Below are positions 4,815 through 20,342 of a stretch of DNA of 20,342 bases, piece by piece (the stretch's first letter is position 1; every line of letters begins with the position of its first letter). Where the stretch lies: positions 1 to 20,342 of the forward strand of contig JACROM010000084.1 in assembly GCA_016214445.1 (NCBI GenBank), in the 5' to 3' direction. The stretch is from Microcaldota archaeon (lineage in GTDB: Archaea > Micrarchaeota > Micrarchaeia > Norongarragalinales > Norongarragalinaceae). The notes under the pieces were generated by a model. The model was not told the origin of the DNA. It was given only the letters and a program-made list of their open reading frames with translations, and did not search any database. The position numbers and the translations under genes are program-made.

Positions 4815-4843
4815 TTCAACCACCTTCCGCTCAACGGATACGA

Positions 4844-4937
4844 TATAGTAAGTGACGCAATATTTTAGACGGAATAGGCGTCACTTACTATATAGTGGGC
4901 GACACCTATTGTATAAAAATTTGTGTCGTCCACTATA
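4844..4937. repeat. Two tandem inverted repeats built from four related 15-mers
   Basis: TATAGTAAGTGACGC at 4844-4858 has a perfect reverse-complement copy at 4878-4892. Two bases of that copy are reused by TATAGTGGGCGACAC at 4891-4905, which pairs with GTGTCGTCCACTATA at 4923-4937 (14 of 15). All four units follow TATAGTRRRYGACRC. The first hairpin fills the gap between toxin and antitoxin; the second overlaps the last codons of the toxin gene. It may be an operator for the antitoxin, an mRNA hairpin that tunes the toxin/antitoxin ratio, or a small palindromic mobile repeat. Confidence 0.8.
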
Positions 4938-5132
4938 GCACGTTACCACCAGCCAATATCCCTGCGTTTTCACGCAAACCACTTCCAAATCCCTGTACCC
5001 GAACCTGAATTTGTTGTCGGCAATTCTTGTCCTGAGTTCCGCTTTTCTGAAGACCGCCTCGACTTCGCTCTTGCTAATCTTCTCGTCCGGCATCGAGTCC
5101 AAAATAGCGTGCCGCGTATAGCGGATATCCAC
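4881..5132 (-). CDS. DUF4258-type toxin of a toxin-antitoxin pair
   Basis: This small protein (83 aa from the GTG at 5132; a TTG at 5138 would give 85 aa) has the DUF4258 layout: an early YTRHA with a conserved His, an acidic helix SKSEVEAVFRKAEL, then FRFGYRDLEVVCV and YWLVVTCY as the closing strands. Proteins of this fold resemble RelE/MqsR-type ribonuclease toxins and are found next to YgiT-type antitoxins, as here. GGGTG lies about 9 bases before the GTG and a TATA-like CATATTTAAT about 25 to 30 bases upstream (5157-5166). The last codons run into an inverted repeat, so the C-terminal tail may be altered from the ancestral protein. RNase activity is inferred from the family, not seen. Confidence 0.75.
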   Translation of the reverse strand: MDIRYTRHAILDSMPDEKISKSEVEAVFRKAELRTRIADNKFRFGYRDLEVVCVKTQGYWLVVTCYSGRHKFLYNRCRPLYSK

Positions 5133-5156
5133 AACCAATTCACCCTAATTATACAA

Positions 5157-5222: not shown

Positions 5223-6584
5223 ATGGAAGACTTCTTTAAACACGCCAAGGAAATCGGGGACGCATGCCTTTCACTCAAAAACCCGGTAATAGTCCACCAT
5301 CTCGACTGCGACGGGCTTGCGAGCGCGGCAATAGTGAAACAGGCTTTCCTTAACGAAGGAAAGGAAGCGGAAACGCTCATGCTGAAAAAAATGGACGCGT
5401 CTGCTAAAATACCAGAAGACAAGGACCTTGTTTTCACGGACTTGGGTTCGGGCCAGCTGGAACTCGTTGAAAAACTGCCGAACAAGAACAAGATAATCAT
5501 AGACCACCACCCGCCCTCAAAGGAAACGGAAATATTCCAGGCGAATTGCCACCTGCACGGGTTGGATGGCACAACTGATGCGTGCGCCGCTTCAACAGCC
5601 TACTTCTGCTTCGCGCACAAAAACATCAACACTGTTTTAGGGATAGTCGGGATGGTTGGGGACATGCAGGAACGAGATGGAATAAAAGGTTTGAACGTGG
5701 AAATGGTAAAGCGCGGAATTGAGAACGGGGAAGTTTTGAAGACGAGGGACTTGCGCGTTTTCGGAAAAGTCACGCGGCCGCTCGTCTCTTTTCTTTCCTA
5801 CTGCACCGAACCCTACCTGCCAGGACTAACCGGAAACGACAAGGCGTGCGCTGTTTTCCTGAAAAACAACTGCATAGAAACGCACAAGGATGGAAAACAA
5901 AGAGCGTATTACGACTTGAGCGTGTTCGAACGGAAAACCCTTGTTTCCGCGCTGGTAGAGTACGCGCACCAGAAGGACGTGGAAAGCGAGGCAATAGGGG
6001 AAATGATAGGAGACGTCTATCTGTTCGTGAAGGAACAGGAACGGTCGGAGCGGAGGGAAGCGTACGAATTTTCCACATTGCTCAACGCGTGCGGCAGGAA
6101 CAACGCTCCCAAAACAGGGATAGACGCGTGCCTCGGAAAAAAAGAGGCGGCAGAACAAGCGCTTAGCCTTTTGCTCGAGCACCGCCGCAACCTACGGGCG
6201 GGAATAGGCTACGCACGCCGGCACACCATGGACGCCGGACCTTTTTATCTTCTCGACGGGAGGGAAAAGATAAGCGACACCATCATAGGAGTGGTGTGCG
6301 GGGCGTATTTCACGAGCGGGCTAGTTGAAAGAAGCAAGCCTGTCATAGGGTTGAGCGTGGACAACGAGAACGCGTTGAAGGCATCGGGCCGCGGAACAAA
6401 AGAGCTCGTAGAAAACGGCCTTGACCTCGGCGAGGCGATGAAAAAAGCAGCTGAACCACTTGGAGGGTACGGGGGCGGCCACACCATCGCAGCAGGCGCC
6501 TCGTTCCCGAACACTCCCGAAAACCTGAAAGCGTTCCTCCTGAAGGTCAAGGAAGTGGTGGAAGTGCAACTTCAGTTGAGATAA
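5223..6584 (+). CDS. DHH-family phosphoesterase, archaeal RecJ/GAN-like nuclease
   Basis: The 453-aa protein has the DHH motifs in order: HHLDCDG (25-31, motif I with Asp28 and Asp30), FTDLGSGQ (71-78), DHH itself at 94-96, and VGD (145-147). The C-terminal DHHA1 region contains GGYGGGHTIAAG near 414-425, which binds nucleic acid. Known archaeal relatives are Mn-dependent single-strand 5'-3' exonucleases; GAN works with GINS and the CMG helicase, others in tRNA or RNA trimming. The length is normal for the archaeal RecJ-like group. The start is supported by a TATA box about 25 bases upstream. It ends convergently with the histone gene. The distinction between GAN and other archaeal RecJ paralogues cannot be made by eye. 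Confidence 0.87.
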   Translation: MEDFFKHAKEIGDACLSLKNPVIVHHLDCDGLASAAIVKQAFLNEGKEAETLMLKKMDASAKIPEDKDLVFTDLGSGQLELVEKLPNKNKIIIDHHPPSKETEIFQANCHLHGLDGTTDACAASTAYFCFAHKNINTVLGIVGMVGDMQERDGIKGLNVEMVKRGIENGEVLKTRDLRVFGKVTRPLVSFLSYCTEPYLPGLTGNDKACAVFLKNNCIETHKDGKQRAYYDLSVFERKTLVSALVEYAHQKDVESEAIGEMIGDVYLFVKEQERSERREAYEFSTLLNACGRNNAPKTGIDACLGKKEAAEQALSLLLEHRRNLRAGIGYARRHTMDAGPFYLLDGREKISDTIIGVVCGAYFTSGLVERSKPVIGLSVDNENALKASGRGTKELVENGLDLGEAMKKAAEPLGGYGGGHTIAAGASFPNTPENLKAFLLKVKEVVEVQLQLR

Positions 6585-6600: not shown

Positions 6601-6807
6601 TCAGTACATCTTCGACGCCAAGAGGATGTCCTCTCGCGTTATGCTTTTGCGGCCGGCATGCTGCGCCATGAGCTTGGCCTTGAAGGAGATGTCCTTTGCC
6701 GCATCCTCTAAAATCTCGCGCAGCTTGAACGAGGCTTTTTCGTCAACCCGCTGCGCGCCAGCTCTCCTGATTATGGCATCTGAATCGAACAACGAAAACT
6801 CTGCCAT
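6601..6807 (-). CDS. Archaeal histone
   Basis: The 68-aa protein is a single histone fold: AIIRRAGAQRVDEKA, then a long central helix ILEDAAKDISFKAKLMAQHA, then GRKSITREDILLASKMY. The last block closely matches the (G)RKT...EDI.LA.K pattern of HMfA/HMfB-type histones, and AGAQRV matches their first loop. It forms dimers that wrap DNA. No N- or C-terminal tail is present. The ATG at 6807 lies 3 bases after the stop of a 46-codon gene on the same strand, so the two are probably co-transcribed and translationally coupled. Confidence 0.96.
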   Translation of the reverse strand: MAEFSLFDSDAIIRRAGAQRVDEKASFKLREILEDAAKDISFKAKLMAQHAGRKSITREDILLASKMY

Positions 6808-8463: not shown

Positions 8464-9576
8464 ATGGAACGAAGGAGCGTATACGAGTGGGTACGCGGCA
8501 AAGAGTGGTTCAATGCGCTTCAGGAGGAGGTAAAGCCGAAGCTCAAGCGCATAACATTCGGGCCATCTCCACCCAACCTGTTCGTCGGCGAGTACGGCTA
8601 CCCGAAAGTACGAGCGGGGCCGATGCTAGGCCTCGAAGAGGGGATAGTGGACGCGCCACAAGAGCTCTACGGACTGAATTATTCCGCGCTCATCAGGAAC
8701 CGCGCTTTTCTCGCGAGAGGCTTCAACGTCAGCGACGTGAAGCTGCCGAAAGACGAACTCTTCTGGCTTGCTGCCTCGCAGAAAAGGATAGATGTGGAAG
8801 CGGAATTTACTTCGGTGCCGAAATTCGACCTGTCCTTTTCGCAATACCTGCAGCCCATGGGGCCGAGCGGCGAAGTCAAGAAAGTAAGGCTCGCGAGCAA
8901 CCCAAAAGTGCCGGGAAAAATAGAGTCGCTGATAGAGGAAAAACTCAAAGTGAGCGAAGCCCTGCCGGAAATAATGGATTTCGACTACAACTACGTGCAA
9001 AAACTGTTGAGCGCCGGAGTGCTCGGCAAGGAAAGGAAAATGGTGCCCACCAAATGGAGCATCACCGCAACTGACGACATGCTCGCGAGGGAAATACTCA
9101 AAGAGGTGAAAAACAACGCGAGCATAAACGACTATCGGATATACTCGAACAACTACCTGCACAACCACTTTGAAATCCTTCTGCTGCCGGGGCCATGGGA
9201 ATTCGAGCAGTTCGAGTCATTTGAAAACTCTTCAAACGTAGAGCACGAGTATGAGGCGTATTGGGGCCGCACCAAATACGCGGAAACCGAAGGAGGCGGC
9301 TACTACGCGGGCAGGTACGGGGTTGTGGAGGCCTTGCAGAAACTCGGCAAACAAGCCCGCGCCATAGTGTTCCGCGAAGTTTCCCCTGAATACGTCCTGC
9401 CAGTTGGGGTGTGGCAGGTGAGAGAATCTGTTCGAGATGCTTTCACCTCGCAGCCTTTCAAAACCTCTTCGTTTGACGACGCAGCCCTGGAACTCCAGCG
9501 CCGCTTAAAGCAACCGTGGACAGAATACTTGAAAAAGAGCAGGATACTAACGCAGAAAAAGCTCTCCGATTACTGA
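8464..9576 (+). CDS. Nre-family DNA repair protein
   Basis: The 370-aa protein has the N-terminal Nre block PPNLFVGEYGYPKVRAGPM (about residues 37-55) and a C-terminal domain with SNNYLHNHFEILLLPGPWEF and VLPVGVWQVRE, both characteristic of the archaeal NreA/NreB (DUF650/DUF651) family. Nre proteins act in DNA damage repair, and many bind PCNA through a C-terminal motif. This one ends in QKKLSDY (364-370), a plausible noncanonical PIP box. A TATA-like GCTTAAAT lies about 25 bases before the ATG, behind an array of 11-bp repeats. The 3' end overlaps the convergent prepilin gene by 7 bases. I see no N-terminal Cys cluster. Confidence 0.85.
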   Translation: MERRSVYEWVRGKEWFNALQEEVKPKLKRITFGPSPPNLFVGEYGYPKVRAGPMLGLEEGIVDAPQELYGLNYSALIRNRAFLARGFNVSDVKLPKDELFWLAASQKRIDVEAEFTSVPKFDLSFSQYLQPMGPSGEVKKVRLASNPKVPGKIESLIEEKLKVSEALPEIMDFDYNYVQKLLSAGVLGKERKMVPTKWSITATDDMLAREILKEVKNNASINDYRIYSNNYLHNHFEILLLPGPWEFEQFESFENSSNVEHEYEAYWGRTKYAETEGGGYYAGRYGVVEALQKLGKQARAIVFREVSPEYVLPVGVWQVRESVRDAFTSQPFKTSSFDDAALELQRRLKQPWTEYLKKSRILTQKKLSDY

Positions 9577-10299: not shown

Positions 10300-11013
10300 C
10301 TAAACCTTCTCCCACTCCAACCCAATCCCCTCAATCCACGGGATTATTTTGTCCCTCTGTTCCTTGCTGCAGCCCTTCCAGTCGATGAAAGCCAAATCGA
10401 CTTTTTCCAGAGTCCGCGAAACCATTTGCCCGACAAGTTCCTTGGTGACGAAGTCAAGCGAGTGTTTGGAAGCGACGTGCGAGAAAGCGTACTCTCCGAA
10501 AAGAGGCGCGAAGGAAGTGCAGTAGTGCGTGCCTCCGAAACCAATCGCCACCTTGCCCGAATCCTTCCGCTCAACCGCGTCCAGAACAGCCGAAGCAATT
10601 GCTTCAGCGTTTTCTCCCTTTTTCCAAGCAGCCTCGTCGGAGCCGATTTCCACGAACAGCGAAGGTTTTTCCAGAAGCGGGCCATGGTGGGTGGCCTCGC
10701 GGAAAACATTGCCGGTCTTCAACAAAGCCAGATAAAACCTGTGCATCCACTCCGCGGAAGCCATGCTCAATTCCCCTTGCTTTCCGCCGTGCCCGGCAGA
10801 ACCGAAGTTGCCAGTAGGGTGAACTGTAAAGCACTCCTTCCCTGATGCGCTCCGGTGCTTGGACAGGAAAACAGCGACGTCGAACCCGTAACCATCTACT
10901 TCTTCCGCTTCAAGAACTGAACGCTCAAGGCGGACCAAGTCAACCTTCCCCTCCAGTTTGGAGGCCATGTTCACGCCTGCCGGGTCCTGCGCAGAGTAGA
11001 AAAACTTTGGCAT
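10300..11013 (-). CDS. dtdA: D-aminoacyl-tRNA deacylase, archaeal DTD2 type
   Basis: The 237-aa protein from the ATG at 11013 begins MPKFFYSAQDPAGVNMA, the typical DTD2 start (YS..DPA..N.A). It contains HPTGN (65-69), THHGP (108-112) and GFGGTHYCTSF (158-168), all matching conserved blocks of archaeal and plant D-Tyr-tRNA deacylases (GEK1/DTD2). The enzyme hydrolyses D-aminoacyl-tRNA to keep D-amino acids out of protein and also clears aldehyde-modified D-aminoacyl-tRNA. The frame is open upstream to 11214 but that stretch is the complement of the next gene. A TATA-like TTTAATTTC (11040-11032) lies about 25 bases before this start, inside the opposing gene. Confidence 0.88.
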   Translation of the reverse strand: MPKFFYSAQDPAGVNMASKLEGKVDLVRLERSVLEAEEVDGYGFDVAVFLSKHRSASGKECFTVHPTGNFGSAGHGGKQGELSMASAEWMHRFYLALLKTGNVFREATHHGPLLEKPSLFVEIGSDEAAWKKGENAEAIASAVLDAVERKDSGKVAIGFGGTHYCTSFAPLFGEYAFSHVASKHSLDFVTKELVGQMVSRTLEKVDLAFIDWKGCSKEQRDKIIPWIEGIGLEWEKV

Positions 11014-11461
11014 GCAAATGGAATGGAAGAAGAAATTAAAGAGGCTTGAGGAAATGCTGGAAAGGGCAACGGGAATGGTGGAAAGCGCAAAAAACATGGT
11101 GTTGTTAAAACAATTCAAACTTTTGGGGTTCGAAAACTTAAGAGACTTCGGAACCCACATAGAAGCAGAACACCAAAAGACACTGGAAGAATTGTGGGAC
11201 CGGCATAAGGACACACTGAAAGAAGTCGCAGCCTACCATATAGAACCTGGCGTAAAACCTAAAATAATCTTAAGAAAGGGAGAAAAGCCAATAGTGGAAC
11301 TTGAAGAAAAGGAAAGAAAAGAAGAAAACGCAGTAGTGAAACTTGAAGAAAAGGAAAGAAGAGAAAAAACTACTTACAAGATAAAAATAGGAAAAGAGTT
11401 GCGAAAAAACCCACTTCTCCTAATCCGCTTCGTGTTGGCGCAAAAGAGGGAAAGACAATGA
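11012..11461 (+). CDS. Coiled-coil hypothetical protein coupled to the E1-like gene
   Basis: This protein of up to 149 aa is mostly helical and highly charged (Lys/Glu), with a likely coiled coil at both ends. I recognise no family. A 14-residue unit is repeated (VELEEKERKEE and VKLEEKERREK), from a 42-base duplication at about 11292-11360. The stop overlaps the E1 start as ATGA (11458-11461), so the two genes are probably translationally coupled and functionally linked. The first ATG (11012) overlaps the opposing DTD2 start codon in a shared CATG, so a later ATG (11018, 11054 or 11075) may be the real start. Its A-rich coding strand differs from E1 and resembles the small genes at 15312-16551. 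Confidence 0.65.
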   Translation: MQMEWKKKLKRLEEMLERATGMVESAKNMVLLKQFKLLGFENLRDFGTHIEAEHQKTLEELWDRHKDTLKEVAAYHIEPGVKPKIILRKGEKPIVELEEKERKEENAVVKLEEKERREKTTYKIKIGKELRKNPLLLIRFVLAQKRERQ

Positions 11462-12222
11462 ACATCGATGAGGACCGGTTCGACAGGCAAAAACGCCTGC
11501 CACAATGGAACCAGAAGGCAATCGAGGAACAAAAGGTCCTGATGATAGGCGCCGGGGCGTTGGGCAACGAAGTCCTGAAGCTTTTGCTCCAGCTGGGGGT
11601 AAGGAACGTCAGGATAGTGGATTTCGACACCATAATCAAAGCCAACCTCAACAGGTGCGTCTTCTTCACTGAAAAGGATGCTGAAGGGAACGCGTTCAAG
11701 TCGCATGTGCTCGCGAGGGAAGCCAAAAAACTTTACCCGCAGGCGGAAGTGACAGCGGACACGCGAAGCGTGGAGGTGTTGGAGGAAAACATTTGGAAAG
11801 GGCACACCATCGTGATGGGCTGCCTCGACAACCTCGGCGCAAGGCTCCACACCAATTCCCACGCTTACGGCAACACACCCTACATTGACGGCGGGACAAT
11901 AGGGTTTTTGGGCAAGGTCCAGACCGTACGCGCCCCGTCAAGCTGCGTTGAATGCTCGTTGAGCAAGCGCGACTACAGGCAATTATGGGAACGCTACAGC
12001 TGCGTTGGGGAAACGCTCGACATAATCGACCCCAAAGCGCCAGCACTCCCGACCACCACCGCCATAATAGCGGCAATCCAGGTGAACGAGCTGGTGAAGA
12101 TTGCGCACGGCCTGCCCTGCTTGGAAGGCAGATACCTCCACTACGACGGCCTCAAACAGGAAACCAAGCTGTTCGAAGTGGCGAAGAGGAAGGACTGCCC
12201 GGTCCACCCGGAAGAAATATAA
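11458..12222 (+). CDS. E1-like ubiquitin-activating enzyme (ThiF/MoeB fold)
   Basis: The 254-aa protein has the ATP-binding loop GAGALGNE (31-38), DFD...NLNR (55-66) with the Arg finger, and D124 in the DxxxAR motif (DNLGAR). CVEC (163-166) with CPVH (247-250) forms a probable zinc site. YSCVGE follows, with Cys182 at the place of the catalytic cysteine of UBA3-type E1s, then LPTTTAIIAAIQVNE. It should adenylate the Gly-Gly end of the ubiquitin-like protein and carry it as a thioester to the E2. At 254 aa it is a minimal, single-domain E1 without the separate Cys domain or ubiquitin-fold domain of eukaryotic enzymes. ThiF/MoeB-type sulfur transfer is the alternative, but E2, RING, JAMM and ubiquitin-like neighbours argue for conjugation. 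Confidence 0.88.
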   Translation: MNIDEDRFDRQKRLPQWNQKAIEEQKVLMIGAGALGNEVLKLLLQLGVRNVRIVDFDTIIKANLNRCVFFTEKDAEGNAFKSHVLAREAKKLYPQAEVTADTRSVEVLEENIWKGHTIVMGCLDNLGARLHTNSHAYGNTPYIDGGTIGFLGKVQTVRAPSSCVECSLSKRDYRQLWERYSCVGETLDIIDPKAPALPTTTAIIAAIQVNELVKIAHGLPCLEGRYLHYDGLKQETKLFEVAKRKDCPVHPEEI

Positions 12223-12246
12223 ATAAGAAACTCTTATTTTCTTATT
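12222..12246 (+). promoter_or_regulatory. AATAAGA/TCTTATT operator before the AbrB-like gene
   Basis: AATAAGA (12222-12228) pairs with TCTTATT (12232-12238), and a third copy TCTTATT sits at 12240-12246, 7 bases before the ATG at 12254. A TATA-like AAATATAAAT (12216-12225) overlaps the end of the E1 gene. The spacing suggests an autoregulated promoter internal to the E1 block. Confidence 0.6.
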
Positions 12247-12253
12247 GATTGGA

Positions 12254-12514
12254 ATGGTTTACTTAAGCAAAGTGACTTCGAGGGGACAAATCACCCTACC
12301 GCAGAAAATAAGAGACGACGAGGGTATCACAGAAAACGATTACGTCATCATCCAGCCAGCCGGAAGCTGCGTCCTAGTGCGCAAGGCTGAGGTCAACATG
12401 GAGGAAATAATGAAAATCTTCCAAAAGGAGGCCAAGCGCAAAGGCGTAACGAAAAAGGAAATACTTGATGAATTGGAAGCGGTTAGGAAGGCCCGCTACA
12501 AGAAAAAGGAATAG
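12254..12514 (+). CDS. AbrB/SpoVT-type DNA-binding regulator
   Basis: The 86-aa protein begins MVYLSKVTSRGQITLPQKIR, the classic swapped-hairpin AbrB/MazE-like N-terminus, and continues NDYVIIQPAGSCVLVRKA. A C-terminal Lys-rich helix (MEEIMKIFQKEAKRKG) follows. The ATG at 12254 is preferred over a TTG 9 bases upstream. It lies 31 bases after the E1 stop and is separated by 1 base from the convergent RING-like gene. AbrB-like proteins serve as antitoxins or transcription regulators. No toxin is adjacent, so it more likely regulates itself and perhaps the ubiquitin cluster, through the AATAAGA palindromes before it. That role is inference. Confidence 0.85.
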   Translation: MVYLSKVTSRGQITLPQKIRDDEGITENDYVIIQPAGSCVLVRKAEVNMEEIMKIFQKEAKRKGVTKKEILDELEAVRKARYKKKE

Positions 12515-12515
12515 C

Positions 12516-13241
12516 CTAATCAAAAGCATCCTTGATGCCCTTGAAGCTCTCTTCCCCGTGCTTGTCCAGTATGACCGGCAGCTTTTTCCCGCACCGTGCG
12601 CACTTGCCGCCGCCGTCAACCAACGCGTGATAACAGTCCTTGTGGTAGGCAGCTCCGCAAACGCAATGGGCGAACTTGCCTGAAGACGGGTCCTTGACGG
12701 AAATCTTGAACCCTGCCCTGCACAGGTCGCATACTTCTCCGTTGTCGCCCAACGGCCTAGCTGGAAGGAAAGGCTTGGCTGCAGAGGAAGGCGCGCCTTT
12801 CTTCATGAGCTCGCTCAAATTAACGTCAGCGACCTTGGCCGGAACGGGTTTTTCGAGCGCTACCCCTACGTTAGCTGAAAACACCTCGGACAAGTCAACT
12901 GAATCATCCTGTTTTTCCTGCGTTTTCTCCCGAACCTGCTTCAGCTTCGGCGCAAACCTGTTGTACCCCTCCACTCCCAAGCCGTAATTGCCGCCGTCCA
13001 AGACAAGGTAACCCTTTTCGACCAACACGTCAAGGCGCTGCTTAGCAGCGTTCCTGTCCACCCCCAGCTTCAGGCACAACGAGCTGAGCGAAGAGACGCC
13101 GGACTGTATAAGCTTCGCGACATCCTTGTCGAACCTGCTCAGCTTCAACGCTTTCTTTCTTCCCGCTTTCCTGGCTTTTTTCCTCGGCTTGCGCTCGGCA
13201 TCCGACTGCGTCAAGCCAGTTTGCTCGCTCTCACTTACCAT
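12516..13241 (-). CDS. Winged-helix plus RING-like zinc-finger protein, candidate E3 ligase
   Basis: The 241-aa protein has a basic N-terminal tail (18-34), a winged-helix domain (about 36-95, with LSSLCLKLGVDRNAAKQRLD and a wing YLVLDGGNYGLG), a flexible linker (100-168), and a C-terminal zinc module: Cys171/Cys174, Cys193/Cys195, His200/Cys203, Cys214/Cys217. The CGAAYHKDC core followed by CARCG matches prokaryotic and archaeal RING-like fingers found with E1/E2 genes (CGxxYHxxCW...C.xCG). It probably recruits the E2; the winged helix could bind DNA, RNA or a protein target. Its ATG overlaps the JAMM protease gene by 11 bases and is preceded by GAGGAAG. A plain zinc-finger regulator is the alternative. 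Confidence 0.75.
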   Translation of the reverse strand: MVSESEQTGLTQSDAERKPRKKARKAGRKKALKLSRFDKDVAKLIQSGVSSLSSLCLKLGVDRNAAKQRLDVLVEKGYLVLDGGNYGLGVEGYNRFAPKLKQVREKTQEKQDDSVDLSEVFSANVGVALEKPVPAKVADVNLSELMKKGAPSSAAKPFLPARPLGDNGEVCDLCRAGFKISVKDPSSGKFAHCVCGAAYHKDCYHALVDGGGKCARCGKKLPVILDKHGEESFKGIKDAFD

Positions 13242-13680
13242 GTTTCTTCCTCACTACTGCGTACGAAGCTTCAGCGTAATCTTCCTTTTTCAACTTGAAA
13301 AACTTTTTTTCACCTCGAACAGGGTCCACCACCAACGCCACGTGAAAAGGCTCGTTGAAAAAATCCTTCTGAGTTCTCAGGTCCGTTGCTGAAAGGAAGC
13401 ACCCGTAACCGGGATGCGAATGACACCAAGCGACGAAAATCTGGCCGTCTTTGAGGGCCTTGGCCAACGCAGACAACGCGCCGTCCTGAAAACGCACGCT
13501 TACAGCGGTCGCGTCGTTGGATGCCGTCAAATAATCCTCCGCCACCACGTAATGCCTGCCTTCGAACGAAAAAACCCTGCCAGCCAGCAACCCCAGCGCT
13601 TCAAGGCCCTTCAGCGAGGAATAAGAAAAATGCTCTTCCACCCTCTTGATGACCGACTCAAGAATGTAAACGTCGAACAT
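13231..13680 (-). CDS. Rpn11-like JAB/MPN (JAMM) deubiquitinase
   Basis: The 149-aa protein is a single MPN+ domain. The JAMM zinc motif is complete: Glu27 in LEALGLLAG, then CHSHPGYGCFLSATDLRTQ with His87, His89, Ser97 and Asp100 (HxH-x10-D). The stretch HSHPG.GC.LS..D..TQ resembles eukaryotic Rpn11 more than bacterial JAB proteins. It should remove the ubiquitin-like protein from substrates, as Rpn11 does at the proteasome. It has no N-terminal or C-terminal extension for lid assembly. It is the middle gene of the - strand block and overlaps the RING-like gene by 11 bases, so both are made from one mRNA. Confidence 0.9.
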   Translation of the reverse strand: MFDVYILESVIKRVEEHFSYSSLKGLEALGLLAGRVFSFEGRHYVVAEDYLTASNDATAVSVRFQDGALSALAKALKDGQIFVAWCHSHPGYGCFLSATDLRTQKDFFNEPFHVALVVDPVRGEKKFFKLKKEDYAEASYAVVRKKHGK

Positions 13681-13691
13681 TCAAAAAACCC

Positions 13692-13726
13692 AAAATCGCC
13701 TTTGGCGATTTTCCGTTTACGGAAAA
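13692..13726. terminator. Two overlapping hairpins between the disordered protein and JAMM genes
   Basis: AAAATCGCC-TTT-GGCGATTTT (13692-13712) and TTTTCCGT-TT-ACGGAAAA (13709-13726) share the four bases 13709-13712, so both full stems cannot form at once. On the - strand the second is followed by GGGTTTTTT just before the JAMM ATG. It may partly terminate the upstream gene and set the ratio between the disordered protein and JAMM/RING. Confidence 0.6.
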
Positions 13727-13744
13727 ACCTTGATACACGAACAG

Positions 13745-14440
13745 TCACCCTAGCCTGAAGAACCGCTTTATTTGCCCTACAAAGCCTTGGGCCTGCTCCT
13801 TCTCGTGCAGTTCCCTCGCAAGCGCCATCGCCCTCTCTCTTTCGTCATGCAGCATCATGGGCGACGGCTCTACTCTCGGGGGGAGGATGTCCCTGGCTGC
13901 TTGCTCATGGTACTCCTTCACGAGCGTCGGCGTCTCCTGAACTGCCACTATCTTCGGACTCGTCAGCTCATGCGCCAACTCGTCCTCCTGTTCAACAGGC
14001 GGCCTGAACACCACCCGTTTCGGCTGCTCGACCTGTACCGGCAGTTGCTCGTGCGGTTCCGGCAGCCGGAGTTCCTTCATCTCCGGCCTCTCAAGTTTCG
14101 GCGGCCTCATGCCCAACGGCAGCTCCTCGGGTTCCAAAACTTTTTGCACTGGCGACTGGGCTGATTCGCTCGCGCGCTGAATTTCTCGAGGAATATTCTC
14201 TTCTATGGAAAACTTTGGTTTTTCACGCTCCTGACTGCCAGCTGCTTCAGGCAATTGAATTGGTTCCTGTTTTTCTCCACCAGCCTCTTCGCTTTTTTCC
14301 GCTCGCGGAAGCTCCGGCAGCTTCTGCTCGTTTGGCCGTACTTCCGGCTGCTCTGAAGGAAGGTCTGGAACGTCAACCTGTTTTTCGGGCGACTCGACAA
14401 CATCGGGTTCCTTCAACGAAACAATCTTCGGTTTTTCCAT
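13745..14440 (-). CDS. Pro/Glu-rich, probably disordered protein of the ubiquitin cluster
   Basis: From the ATG at 14440 (MEKPKIVSLKEPD) the protein is 231 aa. Most of it is low-complexity Pro, Glu, Gln, Lys and Arg without predicted globular cores. The last 50 residues are more helical (HDERERAMALARELHEKEQ), ending in a basic amphipathic GFVGQIKRFFRLG. I recognise no family. It is the first gene of the - strand block, transcribed from the promoter shared with the ubiquitin-like gene. Its first residues resemble those of the Glu-rich protein at 15693 (EKPKI plus charged residues). It could be a substrate, scaffold or proteasome-recruiting tail. The frame is open upstream to 14494 but that part crosses the promoter. 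Confidence 0.7.
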   Translation of the reverse strand: MEKPKIVSLKEPDVVESPEKQVDVPDLPSEQPEVRPNEQKLPELPRAEKSEEAGGEKQEPIQLPEAAGSQEREKPKFSIEENIPREIQRASESAQSPVQKVLEPEELPLGMRPPKLERPEMKELRLPEPHEQLPVQVEQPKRVVFRPPVEQEDELAHELTSPKIVAVQETPTLVKEYHEQAARDILPPRVEPSPMMLHDERERAMALARELHEKEQAQGFVGQIKRFFRLG

Positions 14441-14489
14441 GCTTTTGTAGAGGCGCCTAAGGTTAAAGAAAGTTGCGCAATAGGCAAAA

Positions 14490-14554
14490 AACAAGCTTTT
14501 ATAGCAAGACCAGCAAATGAATCTACGAAATAGGTCGGTCTTGCTATATAATTC
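14490..14554. promoter_or_regulatory. Bidirectional promoter with 12-bp inverted repeat overlapping both TATA boxes
   Basis: TATAGCAAGACC (14500-14511) and GGTCTTGCTATA (14537-14548) are perfect inverted copies with a 25-base spacer. Read outward, each arm becomes a core promoter: GGTCTTGCTATATAAT toward the ubiquitin-like gene and GGTCTTGCTATAAAAG toward the - strand block. Each TATA lies about 35 to 50 bases from its start codon, so these mRNAs have short leaders; GGAAGGGG precedes the ubiquitin-like ATG by about 8 bases. One factor bound here could control both directions. Confidence 0.75.
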
Positions 14555-14584
14555 TCAAGGCCATAACTGGAAGGGGATGAGACT

Positions 14585-14827
14585 ATGACGGAATTCAACA
14601 TAACGATAACCCACACGACAACAGGCAAGGAGATAACCATGGCAGTGGAGCCGCACTTCACGGTTTCCTCGGTAATCGAGGTTCTGGCTGAAAGCCTGAA
14701 GCTGAAGGACCGGTTTGTCCTGGCGACTAAGGAAAACAAGATAATCGGCCCGGACGTGACAATCGAGGAAGCCGGAATCAAGGAAGGCGACTCTTTGCTT
14801 TTGATGCCCGACCCGACAGGCGGCTGA
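14585..14827 (+). CDS. Ubiquitin-like protein with exposed C-terminal Gly-Gly
   Basis: The 80-aa protein has a beta-grasp pattern: strand FNITITHT, strand KEITMAV, the central helix SSVIEVLAESLKL, strand FVLAT, then IIGPDVTIEEAGIKEGDSLLLM, which parallels the ubiquitin segment around its second half (a DGRTLSDYNI-like turn then a final strand). It ends PDPTGG, so the conjugation-competent Gly-Gly is present without any processed tail. Several lysines could accept chains (for instance Lys39, Lys41, Lys49, Lys52, Lys66). It is the first gene of the + strand block and is followed by the E2 after 14 bases. SAMP/Urm1-like sulfur carrier function is the alternative, but the E2 next door favours protein conjugation. 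Confidence 0.87.
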   Translation: MTEFNITITHTTTGKEITMAVEPHFTVSSVIEVLAESLKLKDRFVLATKENKIIGPDVTIEEAGIKEGDSLLLMPDPTGG

Positions 14828-14841
14828 GAGGCGCATAAGAA

Positions 14842-15306
14842 ATGCAGTTGCCCGAAGACATATGGAAAAGGCGGCTGGAAAGCGAGCACAACGAAATGAC
14901 GCGGAGCGGGATACGCTTCGAAGCCAACTCGGAATACACCGAATACACCCTCAGCCTGCAGGGCGAAGGGTACGCCAAAGAAGGCGAGACAGTCAAGCCA
15001 AGGCTTCAGCACGCTGTACTCGTTGAAATACGCAGGACCTACCCTTACCCGGGAGGAGTGAACGCCTACTGGCTAACCCCAATATTCCATCCCAACATCC
15101 GCAGGGAGGACGGCGCGGTCTGCATCCAATTGGTGAACGCGTGGAGCGAAACCCAGAACCTGGTGAGCCTCATCGGGGGGTTGAAGCAGTTGCTGGAAAA
15201 CCCGAACCCGCAGAGCCCTTTGAACGAGGATGCCGCGAGATACTTCCTAGAACACCCTAACCTAGCACAGCACAAACCCAAAGGTCCGAGGATTGTCAAG
15301 TTGTGA
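14842..15306 (+). CDS. E2-like ubiquitin-conjugating enzyme (UBC fold)
   Basis: The 154-aa protein matches the UBC core: N-terminal helix (1-22), strands up to HAVLVEIRRTYPYPGG, the HPN motif FHPNI (His83-Pro84-Asn85), and active-site Cys94 in DGAVCIQLV, nine residues after the HPN Asn as in eukaryotic E2s. NAWSETQNLVSLIGGLKQLL follows, then NPQSPLNEDAARYF, the conserved PN..dPLN.eA helix. It should accept the ubiquitin-like protein from the E1 and pass it to lysines, probably with the RING-like protein. It lies 14 bases after the ubiquitin-like gene and 5 bases before the next gene. This is an unusually eukaryote-like E2. Confidence 0.92.
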   Translation: MQLPEDIWKRRLESEHNEMTRSGIRFEANSEYTEYTLSLQGEGYAKEGETVKPRLQHAVLVEIRRTYPYPGGVNAYWLTPIFHPNIRREDGAVCIQLVNAWSETQNLVSLIGGLKQLLENPNPQSPLNEDAARYFLEHPNLAQHKPKGPRIVKL

Positions 15307-15311
15307 TGTGA

Positions 15312-15536
15312 ATGTTGCGTTTATTGGAAAAACTGCAAGAATTGAAAGAAAAAAAAACAATAGAAGGCGCCATAATCACGCACTTCGCCCACTATAAGAC
15401 AGGCCACGGCACCATGAGAGCGACGGTTTATCTCGAACCCAGGAAAAACGAGCCTGCTGAGCTGTGGGAAAGCAGGGTCGCCGCGCTTGTTGAAGGTTGT
15501 GGTTCCGTGCGCCAATCAAGAAAAAGGAGGAAATAG
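15312..15536 (+). CDS. Hypothetical protein, first half of a possible frameshifted gene
   Basis: The 74-aa frame starts 5 bases after the E2 stop. It has a Lys/Leu-rich helix (1-15), then IEGAIITHFAHYKTGHGTMRATVYLEP, a beta-rich part, then a helix ending RQSRKRRK. No family is recognised. The frame after it (15497-15682) overlaps in the -1 register and reads naturally as a continuation (KKEEIAEKLRGMKE). The crossover could be at the A-run 15518-15525. Either the two are separate overlapping genes, or one base is missing from the sequence, or ribosomes shift frame there. Confidence 0.6.
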   Translation: MLRLLEKLQELKEKKTIEGAIITHFAHYKTGHGTMRATVYLEPRKNEPAELWESRVAALVEGCGSVRQSRKRRK

Positions 15537-15682
15537 CTGAAAAATTGAGGGGAATGAAAGAGACGATGTACACGGAAATAAGATGGGATCAGGAAGATCC
15601 GCTAATCGAACAATTCAGACTAAACAAGTTAAAGTGGCACACCACGCAGTACACGACTAAAGGCAAACCCCACACAAACTAG
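15497..15682 (+). CDS. Hypothetical short frame, possible second half of the preceding gene
   Basis: As a separate gene it would use a TTG at 15497 (61 aa) or an ATG at 15554 (42 aa, MKETMYTEIRWDQEDPLIEQ). It is charged at the start and ends with aromatic and polar residues (KWHTTQYTTKGK). The TTG has no ribosome-binding site, and GAGGGGA touches the ATG at 15554, too close for a normal Shine-Dalgarno. Both points favour its being the tail of the protein that begins at 15312. I do not recognise a family. Confidence 0.5.
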   Translation: MWFRAPIKKKEEIAEKLRGMKETMYTEIRWDQEDPLIEQFRLNKLKWHTTQYTTKGKPHTN

Positions 15683-15692
15683 GGAACAGGAA

Positions 15693-16133
15693 ATGACTGA
15701 AAAACCAAAAATAATCAAGGTAAGGGAACTCGAAATACCTGAAAAGGAGCCGCCGAGCGAGGAAGAGTACGAGTTCTTGGAAACCTACGAGCCGGAAGGG
15801 GAGGAAGAAACCGGAGAGGACAAAGAGGAAGAAAAAACAGAAGGGGAAAAAGGGGCTGGAGGGGAAAGGGAAGAAAGCGGCGCAGACGGGACGAAGGAAG
15901 AAGAAAAAGAAACAGAAGGAGAAGAAAAACAAGAGCAAACAACCGAAGCAAACGGAACCGAAGGGAAGGAAGAAGGCAAAACAACGGAAAGAAAGAAAAA
16001 GGATGAAACAACCGAAGGAAAAGAAGAAAGCGAACCAACTGAAGGGAAGCAAGGCAACGGGACTGAAAACAAGGAAACGGGCGAAAACACCAACCAAAGC
16101 GAAACAGAGAAAAACAGCTGGGAACAAGAGTGA
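15693..16133 (+). CDS. Glu-rich low-complexity acidic protein
   Basis: The 146-aa protein starts MTEKPKIIKVRELEIPEKEP and then becomes an almost uninterrupted run of Glu, Lys, Thr and Gly, with TEGKE/TEGEE-like units. It is surely disordered and strongly acidic. No family is recognised. The N-terminal KPKI block resembles that of the disordered protein encoded at 13745-14440, so both may dock on the same partner. GGAACAGGAA precedes the ATG. It sits 10 bases after the previous stop and 4 bases before the next gene, within the ubiquitin operon. The reverse strand is also open but gives only a Phe/Leu/Ser-rich artefact. Confidence 0.7.
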   Translation: MTEKPKIIKVRELEIPEKEPPSEEEYEFLETYEPEGEEETGEDKEEEKTEGEKGAGGEREESGADGTKEEEKETEGEEKQEQTTEANGTEGKEEGKTTERKKKDETTEGKEESEPTEGKQGNGTENKETGENTNQSETEKNSWEQE

Positions 16134-16137
16134 AAGC

Positions 16138-16551
16138 ATGCCGTTCAAAGCACTGAAAAAAAGGCTTGAATTACGGAACGTCAGAAAAAATAACGTCTAT
16201 TACGCCACACTCGAAGCAAAAGCATATCTCCCGGAAGAAATAGGAAAAGTAGAATTGGCGGAGAAAATAGGAGAACGCTGGTTTGGATTAAAAATAGGAG
16301 AACGCTGGTTTGGATTAAAAATAGGGGAACGCTGGCCCTGGTTAAAAAAAGAACTTGAAGAAATAACCGTTACCGCACACCTCAAAGAAAAAATCCACCA
16401 TGAAAGCAACGAAGTAACTGCGTTTAAGGACCGCCTAGAGGCTCTAATTGAAGACGTGGGAAAGGGCTTAAGCGTAAAAACAAGCCAAGCGAAGCCCATA
16501 ATCAGAGAAAACAAAGTAATCGCGTATTCGTTCGACGTAACCAAAACCTAA
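16138..16551 (+). CDS. Hypothetical protein with a triple 9-residue repeat
   Basis: From the ATG at 16138 (MPFKALKKRLE) the protein is 137 aa. A 27-base unit is repeated three times at 16264-16344, giving KIGERWFGL, KIGERWFGL and KIGERWPWL. The first two copies are identical at the DNA level, so the expansion is recent or actively maintained. The rest has a charged helix (LKEKIHHESNEVTAFKDRLE) and a beta-strand ending. The function is unknown. It is the last gene of the ubiquitin operon and overlaps the convergent Lhr gene tail by 4 bases. Confidence 0.7.
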   Translation: MPFKALKKRLELRNVRKNNVYYATLEAKAYLPEEIGKVELAEKIGERWFGLKIGERWFGLKIGERWPWLKKELEEITVTAHLKEKIHHESNEVTAFKDRLEALIEDVGKGLSVKTSQAKPIIRENKVIAYSFDVTKT

Positions 16552-19097
16552 GCCCTCCAGAACCTCTTTGTGCGGATGAACTCCTTCTGGCCGGTAAGCA
16601 AGTCGTAGAACAGCGATTCGTCGGTTTTCTGCAGGCGGCCGAGAAGCCTCGCAGCAGTCTCCGGGCCGACCCCGTAAACGCTCAAGGCGTAAAGGGCTTT
16701 CTGGCCGTAGGCCGATACGAGCGAAGCAACCTTCTTTTGCTCCTTCTTGCCGAAAAACTCGTCGGGAACAATCTGGTTGGAAGAACAGAAGATGCACTTT
16801 GGTTCGGGAAAAGAACCGAGGGTCTTCGAAAAGAACTGCTTGCAGTAAGTGCACCGCAGCTTCACCTTCTTCGCCCTAAGCTCTTCGGCAAACGCTTCCA
16901 GAACCTTTTCAGTCGGCTCTGCAGCAACGTACAGCTCCGAAAAGCCACCAGCATCAAGGGCGTTCTTCGCAAGCGAAGACCACTTCTCAACTGAAGCAAC
17001 AGGAACGCGGAAAGGTATGAAAGAGAAGGCCGACAAGTCTATCTTGTCGTAGAACAGTTCGCTGAAAACCTCCTCCGAAATAACGGAGTTCTTCATCAAC
17101 GCAGCGAGGCGCTTGACGCTTATTGCATTGTAGTCGCGGTCTTTCCTCAACAGGCCAAAACGCTTCGCGACGTGGACAAACCGCCGCAAAAACAAAGGCG
17201 ACTCAAATAAATTGGTTTTAAGGAACGAACGCGCGTCAACTGACCGCAGGTGAAGCAGGTTTTCAACGAGCTTGTCAGGTTCGGCTTTCCGTGAAAACTC
17301 GAAGATGATGGTGTACGCGGAGGCGCGCGAACGGACGCTCTTCCCTTGAAGGGAAAACAATATCGAAACACCTTTCGCTATTGCCTCGTTCGCCTTGTGC
17401 CCGAGGAAACTGTGCAGAACACAGGCAGTATCACGGCACTCCAGCGACATTCCCTCCTCCTTTAGCACGGAAGCGACATCACGGGCCACGTCCATGGTAA
17501 CCGGAATCTCCTCACCAATCCAGTCCGGGATCGCAGCGGAAAAATCGCGGCACGGCTCAACCACCACTTCGTCATCGCTCACGCTCAAGACCTTCCACGC
17601 CTTCCCTCGCGCTATAAAGGAAGCGCCCTCGGCGAGATAGTTGGAAACGAAAGCCTCGTCCAGCATTGCCACGTTCTTGTTGGTTTCGGCGTTCTTGACG
17701 AAAAACCTCTTCTCGTCCGGGATGGTGCTCAGGTTCTCGTAGTAATAAAACCTCAGCCTCTTAGTTGACTCAACGGTTTTACCGTCAGAAGCGATTATGC
17801 CAGAGGAAGCGAGCTCCTGCGCAACCGCCTGCAGGTCTTCAAGCGAAACATCCTTGAACGGCTCGGCTTCGCGGAAAACCTTCAACGCATGTTCAAGGCG
17901 AACAGGACCGTACTCCATTATGAGCCCGCAGAGCTGCTGCGCCAGAACATCCAACGCCTTCTGCCTTTTGCGCTGAACATCCAGCTTCGCCTCGTGGGCC
18001 CGCCTCACCAACACTTCGGCCTCCAGCGCGTCCATCTCATCCAAGGCAAGAATAACCCCTTTGGGGGTCAAGTGCTTTCGGTGACCGCTCCTCCCGACCC
18101 GCTGGACTAGCCTTGAAACCTGGCGCGGCGAACCCATCTGGATGACCAAGTCAACCTCGCCGATGTCCATGCCCAGCTCAAGGGAGGAAGTGCATACAAG
18201 CGCCTTCAGCGAGCCTCTCTTGAATTCCTCCTCCACTTCCAGCCTCGCCTCCTTGGAAAGCGAGGAATGGTGAACTGCGAAATCCTCGCCCAATACTCCC
18301 CCGAGCAAGGCACCCAACGCCTCGGCCATGAAGCGCGTGTTCACGAAAATCAGCGTCTTGGAATGCGACTTCACCAGCGCCTCAATTGCCTTCAAACGCG
18401 AGGACGTCTCTGCAGACAGGCCGGAAAGGGCCTTGCCCGAAGAACCGCGGGTTACTTCGAGCTTCATGGACCTCAGGTGCGAACAGTCAACTACTTCTAC
18501 TCCTTTGCCGAGGAAAGCGGCCACGTCTTCAGGCGAATAAACAGTAGCGCTCAAACCAATAATCTGGAAACGCGAAAGAAGGCGCAACCGCTCGAGCGCC
18601 AAGCTCAGCTGCACCCCGCGTTTGGAGTAAGCCAGTTCATGAACTTCGTCCACCACCACAAACCGTACGTTTTTCAGGGAATCCCGCATGCCCGCAACGA
18701 GCAGAGCATTGAGGCTTTCGGGAGTGGAAATCAAAACATGAGGAGGCCTCGCCTTCTGCTTCACTCTCTCGTAGGAGGAGGTGTCGCCGTGCCTGACGCC
18801 CAACCGCAAACCAAGCATCTTGCAGTAAAACCTCAAACGCTCAAGCATGTCCCGGTTCAACGCCTTGAGCGGAGTCAGGTAAAGCACCTGCACCCCTTCT
18901 CCTTTTTGCTCCGCGAGCTTGGAGAGAACAGGAAGCATGGCGGCCTCGGTTTTGCCGAAGCCAGTTGGCGCTATAAGGAGAACATTCTTGCCTTCGAGAA
19001 TGAGCGGAAACGCTTTTGCCTGGACTTCGGTAAACTCGCTGAGGCCCTTGACTTCCGCCAAACGCGCGACGTCAGGATGAAGGCCGGTAGAAGACAT
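16548..19097 (-). CDS. lhr: Lhr-type superfamily 2 helicase
   Basis: From the ATG at 19097 the protein is 849 aa. It has all SF2 motifs: the Q-motif region FTEVQ, Walker A APTGFGKT (43-50), TPLKALNRD (75-83), ISTPESL (123-129), DEVH (150-153), GLSAT, LIFVNTR, then SSLELGMDIGEVD and QRVGRSGHR. A winged-helix and the Lhr beta-barrel region (IARGKAWKVLSV) follow. Near the C-terminus are CTYC (749-752) and CIFC (768-771), a zinc ribbon, and a helix-hairpin-helix-like YGVGPETAARLL. Lhr helicases are 3'-5' DNA or RNA-DNA translocases in archaeal repair. The upstream open stretch to 19208 is the antisense of the divergent gene. TTTTTATC near 19121-19128 is a fitting TATA box. Confidence 0.92.
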   Translation of the reverse strand: MSSTGLHPDVARLAEVKGLSEFTEVQAKAFPLILEGKNVLLIAPTGFGKTEAAMLPVLSKLAEQKGEGVQVLYLTPLKALNRDMLERLRFYCKMLGLRLGVRHGDTSSYERVKQKARPPHVLISTPESLNALLVAGMRDSLKNVRFVVVDEVHELAYSKRGVQLSLALERLRLLSRFQIIGLSATVYSPEDVAAFLGKGVEVVDCSHLRSMKLEVTRGSSGKALSGLSAETSSRLKAIEALVKSHSKTLIFVNTRFMAEALGALLGGVLGEDFAVHHSSLSKEARLEVEEEFKRGSLKALVCTSSLELGMDIGEVDLVIQMGSPRQVSRLVQRVGRSGHRKHLTPKGVILALDEMDALEAEVLVRRAHEAKLDVQRKRQKALDVLAQQLCGLIMEYGPVRLEHALKVFREAEPFKDVSLEDLQAVAQELASSGIIASDGKTVESTKRLRFYYYENLSTIPDEKRFFVKNAETNKNVAMLDEAFVSNYLAEGASFIARGKAWKVLSVSDDEVVVEPCRDFSAAIPDWIGEEIPVTMDVARDVASVLKEEGMSLECRDTACVLHSFLGHKANEAIAKGVSILFSLQGKSVRSRASAYTIIFEFSRKAEPDKLVENLLHLRSVDARSFLKTNLFESPLFLRRFVHVAKRFGLLRKDRDYNAISVKRLAALMKNSVISEEVFSELFYDKIDLSAFSFIPFRVPVASVEKWSSLAKNALDAGGFSELYVAAEPTEKVLEAFAEELRAKKVKLRCTYCKQFFSKTLGSFPEPKCIFCSSNQIVPDEFFGKKEQKKVASLVSAYGQKALYALSVYGVGPETAARLLGRLQKTDESLFYDLLTGQKEFIRTKRFWRA

Positions 19098-19132
19098 GAA
19101 GCTTTTATGCACTGGCGGCGATAAAAAGGGGT

Positions 19133-19435
19133 ATGCGTTATGAAGAAGCCAAAAGGCGTCTTGCGAACGAAGCTCTAAAGGATGCCGAAAACAGGTCAGA
19201 AACCCCAAGAATAATCAAGGAGCATTTAGTTAACGCAGGTTACGGCTCCAAGAAATCTTCGCAAGCCTTGCCGCGCATCTGGAAACAGTTGGCCGAGGCT
19301 GTGGTTACAAAAGAACAGGAAATGATACTCTACACAAACGCAAAATTGCCGTCGCTAAAATTGCTCCTTCAAAAAGGAATAGCGCAACGCCTCGGGAGAA
19401 TGCGGTGGGCGGTACCAAGAAGCTACACGCAATAG
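19133..19435 (+). CDS. Hypothetical 100-aa basic protein
   Basis: The protein starts MRYEEAKRRLANEALKDAEN and is Lys/Arg-rich and mainly helical. No known domain is recognised. It diverges from the Lhr gene across 35 bases; CTTTTATGC (19102-19110) about 25 bases upstream could be its TATA box, giving a leaderless mRNA. A hairpin CCGCCAA-CTTT-TTGGCGG (19447-19464) lies 12 bases after the stop and may end transcription. It could be a small regulator or a degraded gene near the insertion element. Confidence 0.6.
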   Translation: MRYEEAKRRLANEALKDAENRSETPRIIKEHLVNAGYGSKKSSQALPRIWKQLAEAVVTKEQEMILYTNAKLPSLKLLLQKGIAQRLGRMRWAVPRSYTQ

Positions 19436-19519: not shown

Positions 19520-20342
19520 TGTTGAGTCCTGATATTATTTCCCACTTCGTTGTGAACCATTGATTTCATTACAAATCACCACCCAAATAAGTCTTTCGTC
19601 AACCCAAACACGTGTTCGGGAGCCAACCTCCGCAAAAACACCTCGGAAGGCGTCCGCAAACCCGTTCGCCCTCCAAATTACACGTGAACACCGACCCGTT
19701 GTCGGTAATGAACTCGCGAATGCAGGCAAAGTCCTGAACTGACTCTATCACCTGCAACGACATGGCCAACGTGGTTTCGACGGATTCGGCGTCGAATTCT
19801 CCGCCCGCAAGAATCTTGCGGGACGCGTCGTCAATCACCGCCAAAACGTGTTTTCCGTCTTTTGTGGGGTGCCAGTCCAAGTGGACTGCGCTCAAGGAGT
19901 GCTCGCGCTCGTAACAACGATATTTCCTGCGCTTTTGCTTGTTTTTGTTGGGTTTAGCCAAACCCTCCTGCAAGAGTATTTTGTGTATCCGGTTGTGGCC
20001 CATGAACGTGCGGTAGTCTTGTTCGATGACTTTCTCCAGGCGTCTTGCGCCAACGCGTTGTTGGGTGTGCGCTTCGCGCACGACTTCTGTTTCCCAGTCT
20101 TGAACGGGTTTCATTGGTCTCCCGACTCCGTTTCCTATTACTGGGAGCACGCCGTCCTTCAAGTATTTTGCGTACACCTGGTTTACTCGCCGTTTGCTTA
20201 TTCCGAGCTCTTTGGCAAGGTTTTTCGAGGATTTGCCCTTGTTTCGTTCGGTGACTAGCCGTATGATTAGTCGTTTCTTGAGCCTCATTGAAGAAGAACG
20301 CAGGGGGTTACTTAAGGTGGGAAATATTTTCGGGACTATACA
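19520..20342 (-). mobile_element. IS481-like insertion sequence, internally deleted, with both terminal repeats
   Basis: The left end reads TGTTGAGTCCTGATATTATT from 19520 and the right end, on the - strand from 20342, reads TGTATAGTCCCGAAAATATT; both continue TTCCCAC. About 21 of the first 26 bases agree, and TGT termini suit the IS3/IS481 group. The element is about 823 bases, shorter than the usual 950 or more, because its transposase lost a central part. The right end coincides with the last base of the window, so a target-site duplication cannot be checked. Confidence 0.8.
19576..20288 (-). pseudogene. Broken IS481-like (rve) transposase
   Basis: The first 200 or so codons are intact: an N-terminal helix-turn-helix (LAKELGISKRRVNQVYAKYL), then the integrase core AVHLDWHPTKDGKHVLAVID with Asp138, and ITDNGSVFT with Asp196. 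Right after that the sequence jumps. The original frame ends at 19599 with nonsense residues, while another frame gives LRTPSEVFLRRLAPEHVF and stops at 19576-19578, which looks like the normal C-terminus of such transposases. The segment between, including the catalytic Glu, is missing, so the enzyme is inactive. The deletion junction is near 19650-19680. Confidence 0.8.

Follow-up and report, generated by a model that had tools for sequence, protein, structure and literature searches.

A ubiquitin-type gene set with a short E1, a winged-helix-RING protein and a shared PRIV motif in one order of Micrarchaeota

Can archaea with very small genomes carry a complete-looking, eukaryote-like ubiquitin system, and is such a system inherited within their lineage? 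The question is raised by one whole contig of 20,342 bases (G000:C67; hereafter the window) from a draft micrarchaeal genome of 1.29 Mb (140 contigs, 71.8% complete). A sequence-only reading of the window had placed genes for an E1 activating enzyme, an E2 conjugating enzyme, a ubiquitin-like protein, a RING-like protein and an Rpn11-like JAMM protease within about 4 kb, and this placement holds: the ThiF, UQ_con, ubiquitin and JAB/MPN profiles proposed as a check all matched in a Pfam search, confirming the E1, the E2, the ubiquitin-fold protein and the protease, and the core of five genes spans 3.85 kb, from the E1 start at 11458 to the E2 end at 15306. Judged from sequence, the eukaryote-like gene set is real and the enzyme assignments are right; what goes beyond the first reading is a predicted winged-helix-RING protein, a short E1, a PRIV motif shared with companion proteins, and restriction to one order. 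Homologues were gathered by genome-level searches and one profile scan of genome contigs. The core features are:

11458..12222, plus strand: E1-like ThiF-fold activating enzyme, 254 amino acids, Cys182 (Pfam ThiF 1.9e-45, residues 16-249)
12516..13241, minus strand: winged-helix-RING protein, candidate E3, 241 amino acids (alignment of 21 sequences, AlphaFold2 models, Foldseek)
12516..12764, minus strand: RING part of that protein, modelled alone (AlphaFold2; Foldseek)
13231..13680, minus strand: Rpn11-like JAMM isopeptidase, 149 amino acids, E27/H87/H89/S97/D100 (Pfam JAB 3e-6)
14585..14827, plus strand: ubiquitin-like modifier, 80 amino acids, PDPTGG at the stop (Pfam Rad60-SLD, 1.6e-5, and ubiquitin)
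14842..15306, plus strand: E2 conjugating enzyme, 154 amino acids, HPN at 83-85, Cys94 (Pfam UQ_con 3.1e-15)

A predicted conjugation and deconjugation cascade

The residues on which catalysis would depend are kept across relatives, which bears out the assignments made earlier for the E1 (Cys182), the E2 (HPN and Cys94) and the modifier (terminal GG). Cys182 is invariant in the E1 alignment (20/20 sequences) and follows C163 and C166, which together with C247 and H250 form a set of zinc-type ligands, at a spacing that we take to be like that before the active-site cysteine in ThiF and UBA5. HPN and C94 of the E2 are invariant in 26/26 sequences and E27, H87, H89, S97 and D100 of the JAMM protease in 23/23; the GG is held by 24/24 open reading frames (ORFs) of the modifier family, 18 of which stop exactly there and 6 of which have 1–18 residues more. 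Structure prediction, also proposed as a check, was carried through for the RING protein, in which a RING fold was seen; Cys182, Cys94 and the JAMM residues were judged by conservation. Among solved structures, the E1 profile is nearest to UBA1 (6.3e-35), UBA3 and SAE2, followed by MoeB (7.1e-26), ThiF and UBA5, the E2 profile to UBE2H (9.9e-19) and UBE2A (3.1e-18), and the JAMM profile to RPN11 (4.8e-22), the N11-like protein 6fjv (2.1e-19), presumably the Caldiarchaeum protein, and CSN5 (1.2e-18).

The locus thus probably encodes a ubiquitin-type conjugation and deconjugation cascade of this Micrarchaeota order, enzymatic activity being predicted from the genes, their catalytic residues and the conservation of both. 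The ThiF-type E1 would adenylate the C-terminal Gly80 of the modifier, carry the modifier on Cys182 and pass it on to the E2 at Cys94; as E3, the winged-helix-RING protein would bring the E2 to substrates, and the JAMM protease would take the tag off. Because the modifier of the source genome already ends at GG, no maturation would be needed. Cdc48 and the 20S proteasome, to which the conjugates may be passed, are both encoded: two proteasome-family genes occur in the source genome and at least one in 60/60 relatives, including those lacking the E2; CDC48_N is found in 29/29 genomes of the order, and the PAN-type OB domain, present in four control archaea, in 0/29. A Cdc48–20S route for conjugates is a possible reading of this gene content.

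The E1 is short. Its ThiF match fills the 254 amino acids, ending at residue 249, and no C-terminal ubiquitin-like domain was found on it, so there is no room for the extra domain seen in a comparison E1 with a ubiquitin-family match (L117, 3.6e-5; three further comparison E1s, L164–L166, gave weak hints of 0.012–0.18). Short E1s of this kind occur in two other groups. One is an Asgard-like family (f76, 16 genomes), joined by one genome of a second family (G550 of f100); we infer the Asgard-like character of this group, that of genome G391, from large genomes, a Ras-like GTPase ORF near the locus (L115 13494-13808, by eye) and weak profilin matches in 5 of the 8 genomes tried against 0 of 14 controls, one of them above the family cut-off. 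The other is a third phylum, that of genome G341, with E1-modifier-E2-JAMM loci whose E1s measure 258–290 amino acids in 7/22 loci, two others (L188, L189) having a longer, weakly matching E1; the third-phylum counts given here cover 22 of 41 E2 places, mostly the best-scoring. In a midpoint-rooted tree, the E1s of the order (20), the Asgard-like family (16) and f59 (2, the sole third-phylum E1s included) form one group with support of 100/98, and six longer E1s of 332–533 residues fall outside it, with a long-branch warning for L119.

Asgard-like E2s match the E2 profile at 2.8e-36 to 1.7e-30 (f76) and 1.4e-39 (f100), against a next best match of 1.4e-23 in their phylum. In the E2 tree, Asgard-like and f59 rows are interspersed with micrarchaeal rows at weak support, as are Asgard-like rows in the JAMM tree, so that neither tree fixes the direction or number of transfers. 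As an observation apart, the Asgard-like genome of L119 (G391:C5) holds a further E2 and a further E1, the latter of 533 amino acids with a long stretch interrupting its ThiF match; perhaps these belong to a second ubiquitin system.

The PRIV motif and the companion proteins

The E2 ends in a short motif that recurs on two companions, P249 and X15693:

15286..15297, plus strand: C-terminal PRIV motif of the E2, residues 149-152, conserved in the E2 tails of the order
13745..14440, minus strand: P249, proline- and acid-rich; frame open to 14494; relatives found by profile
15693..16133, plus strand: X15693, small companion; ~40 conserved residues at the start (MTEKPKIIKVRELEIPEKEPPSEEEYEF...), followed by an acidic tail

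The pattern P[KR][IVL][IVLM] lies within the last 14 residues of 26/26 E2s of the order, compared with 0.8% of shuffled tails, and all 26 tails fit the narrower P[KR][IV][IV]. The motif is likewise found in 20/22 X15693 sequences and in 11/12 P249 sequences (two copies in 8/12); the corresponding counts for the other parts are 0/22 for the RING protein, 0/23 for the JAMM protease, 0/24 for the modifier and 1/20 for the E1. As DNA, the motif pattern (AARCCNMRNATHRTN) is too degenerate for a census: it gave 12, 9, 9 and 11 matches in four genomes and its reversed control 11, 1, 3 and 1, so the source genome (12 versus 11) has no genome-wide excess; 3 of its 12 matches lie on the window contig, and the narrower pattern around 30 of the 41 matches led to no further recognised motif-bearing family.

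To what would the motif bind? Carried by the E2 tail, by X15693 and, usually in two copies, by P249, it may dock all three to a partner that they share, most likely the acidic modifier, in the manner of a SUMO-interacting motif (SIM). The E2 tail and the charge of the modifier differ together between groups: where E2 tails are KPRIV-like, in the order, the mean net charge of the modifier is −6.5 (n=23), versus +0.8 (n=16) in Asgard-like loci, where the tails of 16/17 E2s finish in a hydrophobic run between acidic residues (DDDIIIIDD, for example), a kind of sequence that resembles a SUMO-interacting motif. Third-phylum E2s carry the motif in their last 25 residues in 14/22 cases (14/20 besides f59, which has 0/2), and the modifiers there, f59 again set aside, have a mean net charge of −7.0 (n=14; six loci lack a modifier match). 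This contrast in tail type and charge favours a SIM-like role on the modifier; the two f59 loci, with an acidic modifier and no motif, depart from it. SIM-like docking of PRIV to the modifier is accordingly offered as a tentative reading of the sequences, somewhat short of an even chance.

An equal rival keeps the cascade and has the motif dock to another part of the system: the E1, the JAMM protease or the winged-helix-RING protein. For example, the E2 tail might take over recruitment from the C-terminal domain that the E1 lacks, a job done in the UFM1 pathway by a short linear motif. The short E1, whose ThiF match leaves no room for an L117-type domain, fits this rival, as do the presence of the tail on all 26 E2s and, in another phylum, an X15693-like peptide that precedes the JAMM domain. 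Against it stands the spread of the motif over the E2, P249 and X15693, for all three of which the modifier is plausibly the common partner. Docking to the modifier, too, may make up for the missing E1 domain.

The sequence-only reading had described five unknown companion genes, and two of them prove to be conserved families. P249 has an N-terminal and an internal copy of P[KR][IV][IV] and an amphipathic-looking C-terminus; its profile finds relatives in 11 of the 22 loci holding both the JAMM and modifier genes, and at the same place in the other 11 stands an ORF that was compared with P249 by eye; it has the motif in 10 of them and lacks it in L032. A short ORF related to X15693, with the conserved core of ~40 residues, is present in 21/25 relatives' loci; the acidic tail was not seen in relatives. 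The X15693 profile of the order also finds a similar small ORF in 9/17 Asgard-like loci (E 7e-6 to 7e-3) and, between the E2 and JAMM genes, in L194 (2e-4).

In two related third-phylum loci, L184 and L182, an X15693-like stretch (RPRIVAERKRRAREMKPPQDF in L184) forms the N-terminus of the JAMM protein itself. The scores are all weak: L184 reached 0.02 in a first profile, and L184, L182 and L198 reached 0.15, 0.26 and 2.9 in a second, for which the noise level was 1.3 (a non-JAMM ORF) to 2.8 (a shuffled ORF). Of 4,450 ORFs, only L194, itself part of that model, scored better than L184 and L182, which are near relatives; the strict motif is present in 3/17 JAMM N-termini, and for others the likeness was assessed by eye. 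The joining of the two in L184 and L182 suggests that X15693 works with the JAMM protease, and X15693 is probably a companion of that enzyme.

The remaining three companions (the ORFs at 11012, 15312 and 16003) and the AbrB regulator, which had also been counted with the cluster, drop out as parts of the system, having no match in the 25 relatives' loci; for the ORF at 11012 there is no match in the 28 other genomes of the order either, although this ORF contains a motif-like KPKII and may therefore have some link to the system. A comparison with PHROGs gave nothing informative. The ORF at 16003-16551 (plus strand) carries a near-exact threefold peptide repeat (IGERWFGLKIGERWFGLKIGERWPWLK) and runs, in a different frame, over the end of X15693; the true start of this ORF is probably internal.

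The winged-helix-RING protein

The fourth enzyme assignment rests on a protein of 241 residues with a winged helix at about residues 33–98 and a RING at about 171–218. All eight RING ligands (C171, C174, C193, C195, H200, C203, C214 and C217) are invariant in 21 sequences, in 15 of which zf-RING_2 is matched at E≤1. Modelled alone, the RING part retrieves RING folds with Foldseek (first rows TRAF6-Ubc13~Ub, TRIM32 and gp78; none below E 0.001), and the 50 VIA rows listed for the model of the whole protein align to the winged helix alone. By sequence and model, the protein is a winged-helix-RING fusion and a candidate E3 ligase. It is present in 26/29 genomes of the order and, within the phylum, was found in that order only.

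With the model of the whole protein, the top two Foldseek rows are Nse1, the RING subunit of SMC5/6, which likewise combines a winged helix with a C-terminal RING; the scores are weak (TM score about 0.25), one winged helix is seen here, and the Pfam families listed for the protein (25 of 45) do not include that of Nse1. A winged helix might point instead to a protein that chiefly binds DNA and regulates the locus, or to an E3 bound to chromatin, with no general E3 role. That is unlikely, at perhaps a one-in-four order of belief: 12 of the 15 invariant columns of the alignment (n=21) fall in the RING part, and the gene stays beside the E2, modifier and JAMM genes in most loci. Winged helices, moreover, can bind proteins too.

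No winged-helix-RING match was found in the 17 Asgard-like stretches, and no RING match, by profile or loose Cys/His pattern, in the third-phylum stretches. A side observation concerns one Asgard-like locus (L115), beside which three minus-strand ORFs (5404-6471, 10491-11474 and 11793-12842) have apparent membrane segments and, by eye, C-terminal RING-like Cys patterns.

Known systems, inheritance and meaning

Likeness to the sets of Caldiarchaeum and other archaea, and a split into divergent blocks, had been noted from the first, and both are upheld; such sets are known from Caldiarchaeum and from Asgard archaea. As described by Hennell James et al. (PMC5654768), the operon of Caldiarchaeum subterraneum comprises Ub, E2, E1, srfp and Rpn11, with the JAMM gene transcribed against the operon; the cascade was reconstituted in vitro, and srfp has one Cys more and zinc ligands shifted by two residues, which, as far as that description goes, recalls C193/C195 of the window RING. 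The same five parts are clustered in the window, the likeness being one of description and, for the JAMM protease, of profile (the 6fjv match given above). What marks a system of this type in sequence is present (a GG modifier, a ThiF E1 with its Cys, an HPN/Cys E2, a RING and an Rpn11-like JAMM), except for a C-terminal ubiquitin-like domain on the E1; further differences of the window are the winged helix fused to its RING, the lack of a propeptide on the modifier of the source genome, and the additional P249 and X15693. In Asgard-like loci, X15693-like ORFs accompany about half of the systems (the 9/17 above) and E2 tails are IIIIDD-like in 16/17 rather than PRIV; in the third phylum, the X15693-like peptide is joined to the JAMM protease in the two related loci already described.

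Other families are further away. UBA5, the E1 of the UBA5-UFC1 (UFM1) pathway, is a compact E1 with its cysteine within the adenylation fold; it matches the E1 profile over 18–248 (9.4e-20) and is outscored there by UBA1, UBA3, SAE2, MoeB and ThiF. Bacterial Bil (ISG15-like) and CBASS E1-E2 systems likewise have E1, E2, JAMM and ubiquitin-like parts, and PADLOC models of E1-E2 systems match the window E1 (best 3.8e-13), with no PADLOC match at 1e-3 for the E2, the JAMM protease or the modifier; the E1 and E2 of the window, however, are separate short proteins, and its JAMM profile leaves BilC far behind (0.0074, against 4.8e-22 for RPN11), on which ground membership in the bacterial defence group was rejected. 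A sulfur-carrier or SAMP-type system, which works without E2 or E3, with the E2 and RING here vestigial, is very improbable: the E1 has a ThiF/MoeB-like length and matches TIGR02356 ThiF at 4e-28, yet far below the cut-off (98 of 275 bits), and the JAMM protease is nearer to Rpn11 than to desampylase (NF041370, E 0.015), the E2 Cys and HPN are invariant and the RING ligands are invariant too. An active-site E2 and a RING conserved in the locus led to its rejection.

The E2 profile matches 26/29 genomes of the order, the source genome included, and among the 272 other genomes of the phylum only one weak match was obtained (8.9e-4, with internal stop codons), which was discounted; the three genomes of the order lacking the E2 are 61–79% complete, and one of them (G028) holds the RING protein. 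The arrangement of E1 forward, RING and JAMM backward, and modifier and E2 forward is kept in 19/25 relatives' loci, the remaining six having fewer of the genes inside the fetched stretch; the RING gene lies elsewhere in G012 (same contig, ~17 kb off) and G023 (a different contig). Across the 25 relatives' stretches the flanking genes recur as well (DTD in 15, AAA and Lhr in 14 each, Nre in 13, histone in 12). Three of them flank the locus in the window, in places kept in many relatives:

6601-6807, minus strand: archaeal histone gene
8464-9576, plus strand: Nre gene
16548-19208, minus strand: Lhr-type helicase gene

The conserved gene order and common neighbours indicate a system inherited in the order and no local oddity. 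A binning artefact, by which a foreign contig had entered a micrarchaeal metagenome bin, would suit a 140-contig draft whose window is one entire contig, but its probability is negligible given the many related genomes with the same locus and neighbours (DTD, Nre, AAA, histone or Lhr genes), on contigs reaching 187 kb (L036), and two records labelled Candidatus Micrarchaeota (L027, L028) that both encode a close E2.

Elsewhere in the window, an MqsA-like antitoxin ORF (4482-4823, minus strand; PF15731, E 0.0029, below cut-off) adjoins an 85-amino-acid ORF without a Pfam match (4881-5138, minus strand), a possible toxin, and the pair resembles a toxin-antitoxin system; near the contig end lies a transposase/integrase-like ORF (19599-20288, minus strand; rve 3.8e-5 and HTH_21 8.3e-5, both below cut-off).

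Among the papers listed in a search that left most subscription literature outside, none dealt, by its title, with a ubiquitin system of Micrarchaeota; an earlier description may exist. Fuchs et al. describe prokaryotic operons in which JAMMs accompany homologues of Ub, E1 and E2, and report RING proteins only from Caldiarchaeum and Asgard archaea (PMC6043591); the third-phylum locus type may be among these operons. Hennell James et al. refer to clusters I-III, with which an overlap of the short-E1 group is possible (PMC5654768).

It is conceivable, although the case falls rather below even, that the short-E1 systems of the DPANN order, the Asgard-like family and the third phylum represent one old archaeal ubiquitin class, wired by a SIM-like PRIV motif that would bind the modifier from the E2 tail, from a companion of the deubiquitinase or the N-terminus of that enzyme and, as several copies, from the adaptor P249; the Micrarchaeota order would then have added a winged-helix-RING E3 to the class. 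Because the short-E1 group spans phyla, such gene sets would have moved between archaeal phyla or would reach back further than a purely Asgard-to-eukaryote account implies. With a complete-looking E1-E2-RING-deubiquitinase set in a DPANN order, a eukaryote-like ubiquitin system would be placed beyond the Asgard archaea, among genomes of very small size. Its small soluble parts (80–254 amino acids) make binding between PRIV and the modifier directly testable; if PRIV does bind the modifier, prokaryotes would read ubiquitin-like tags by short linear motifs.

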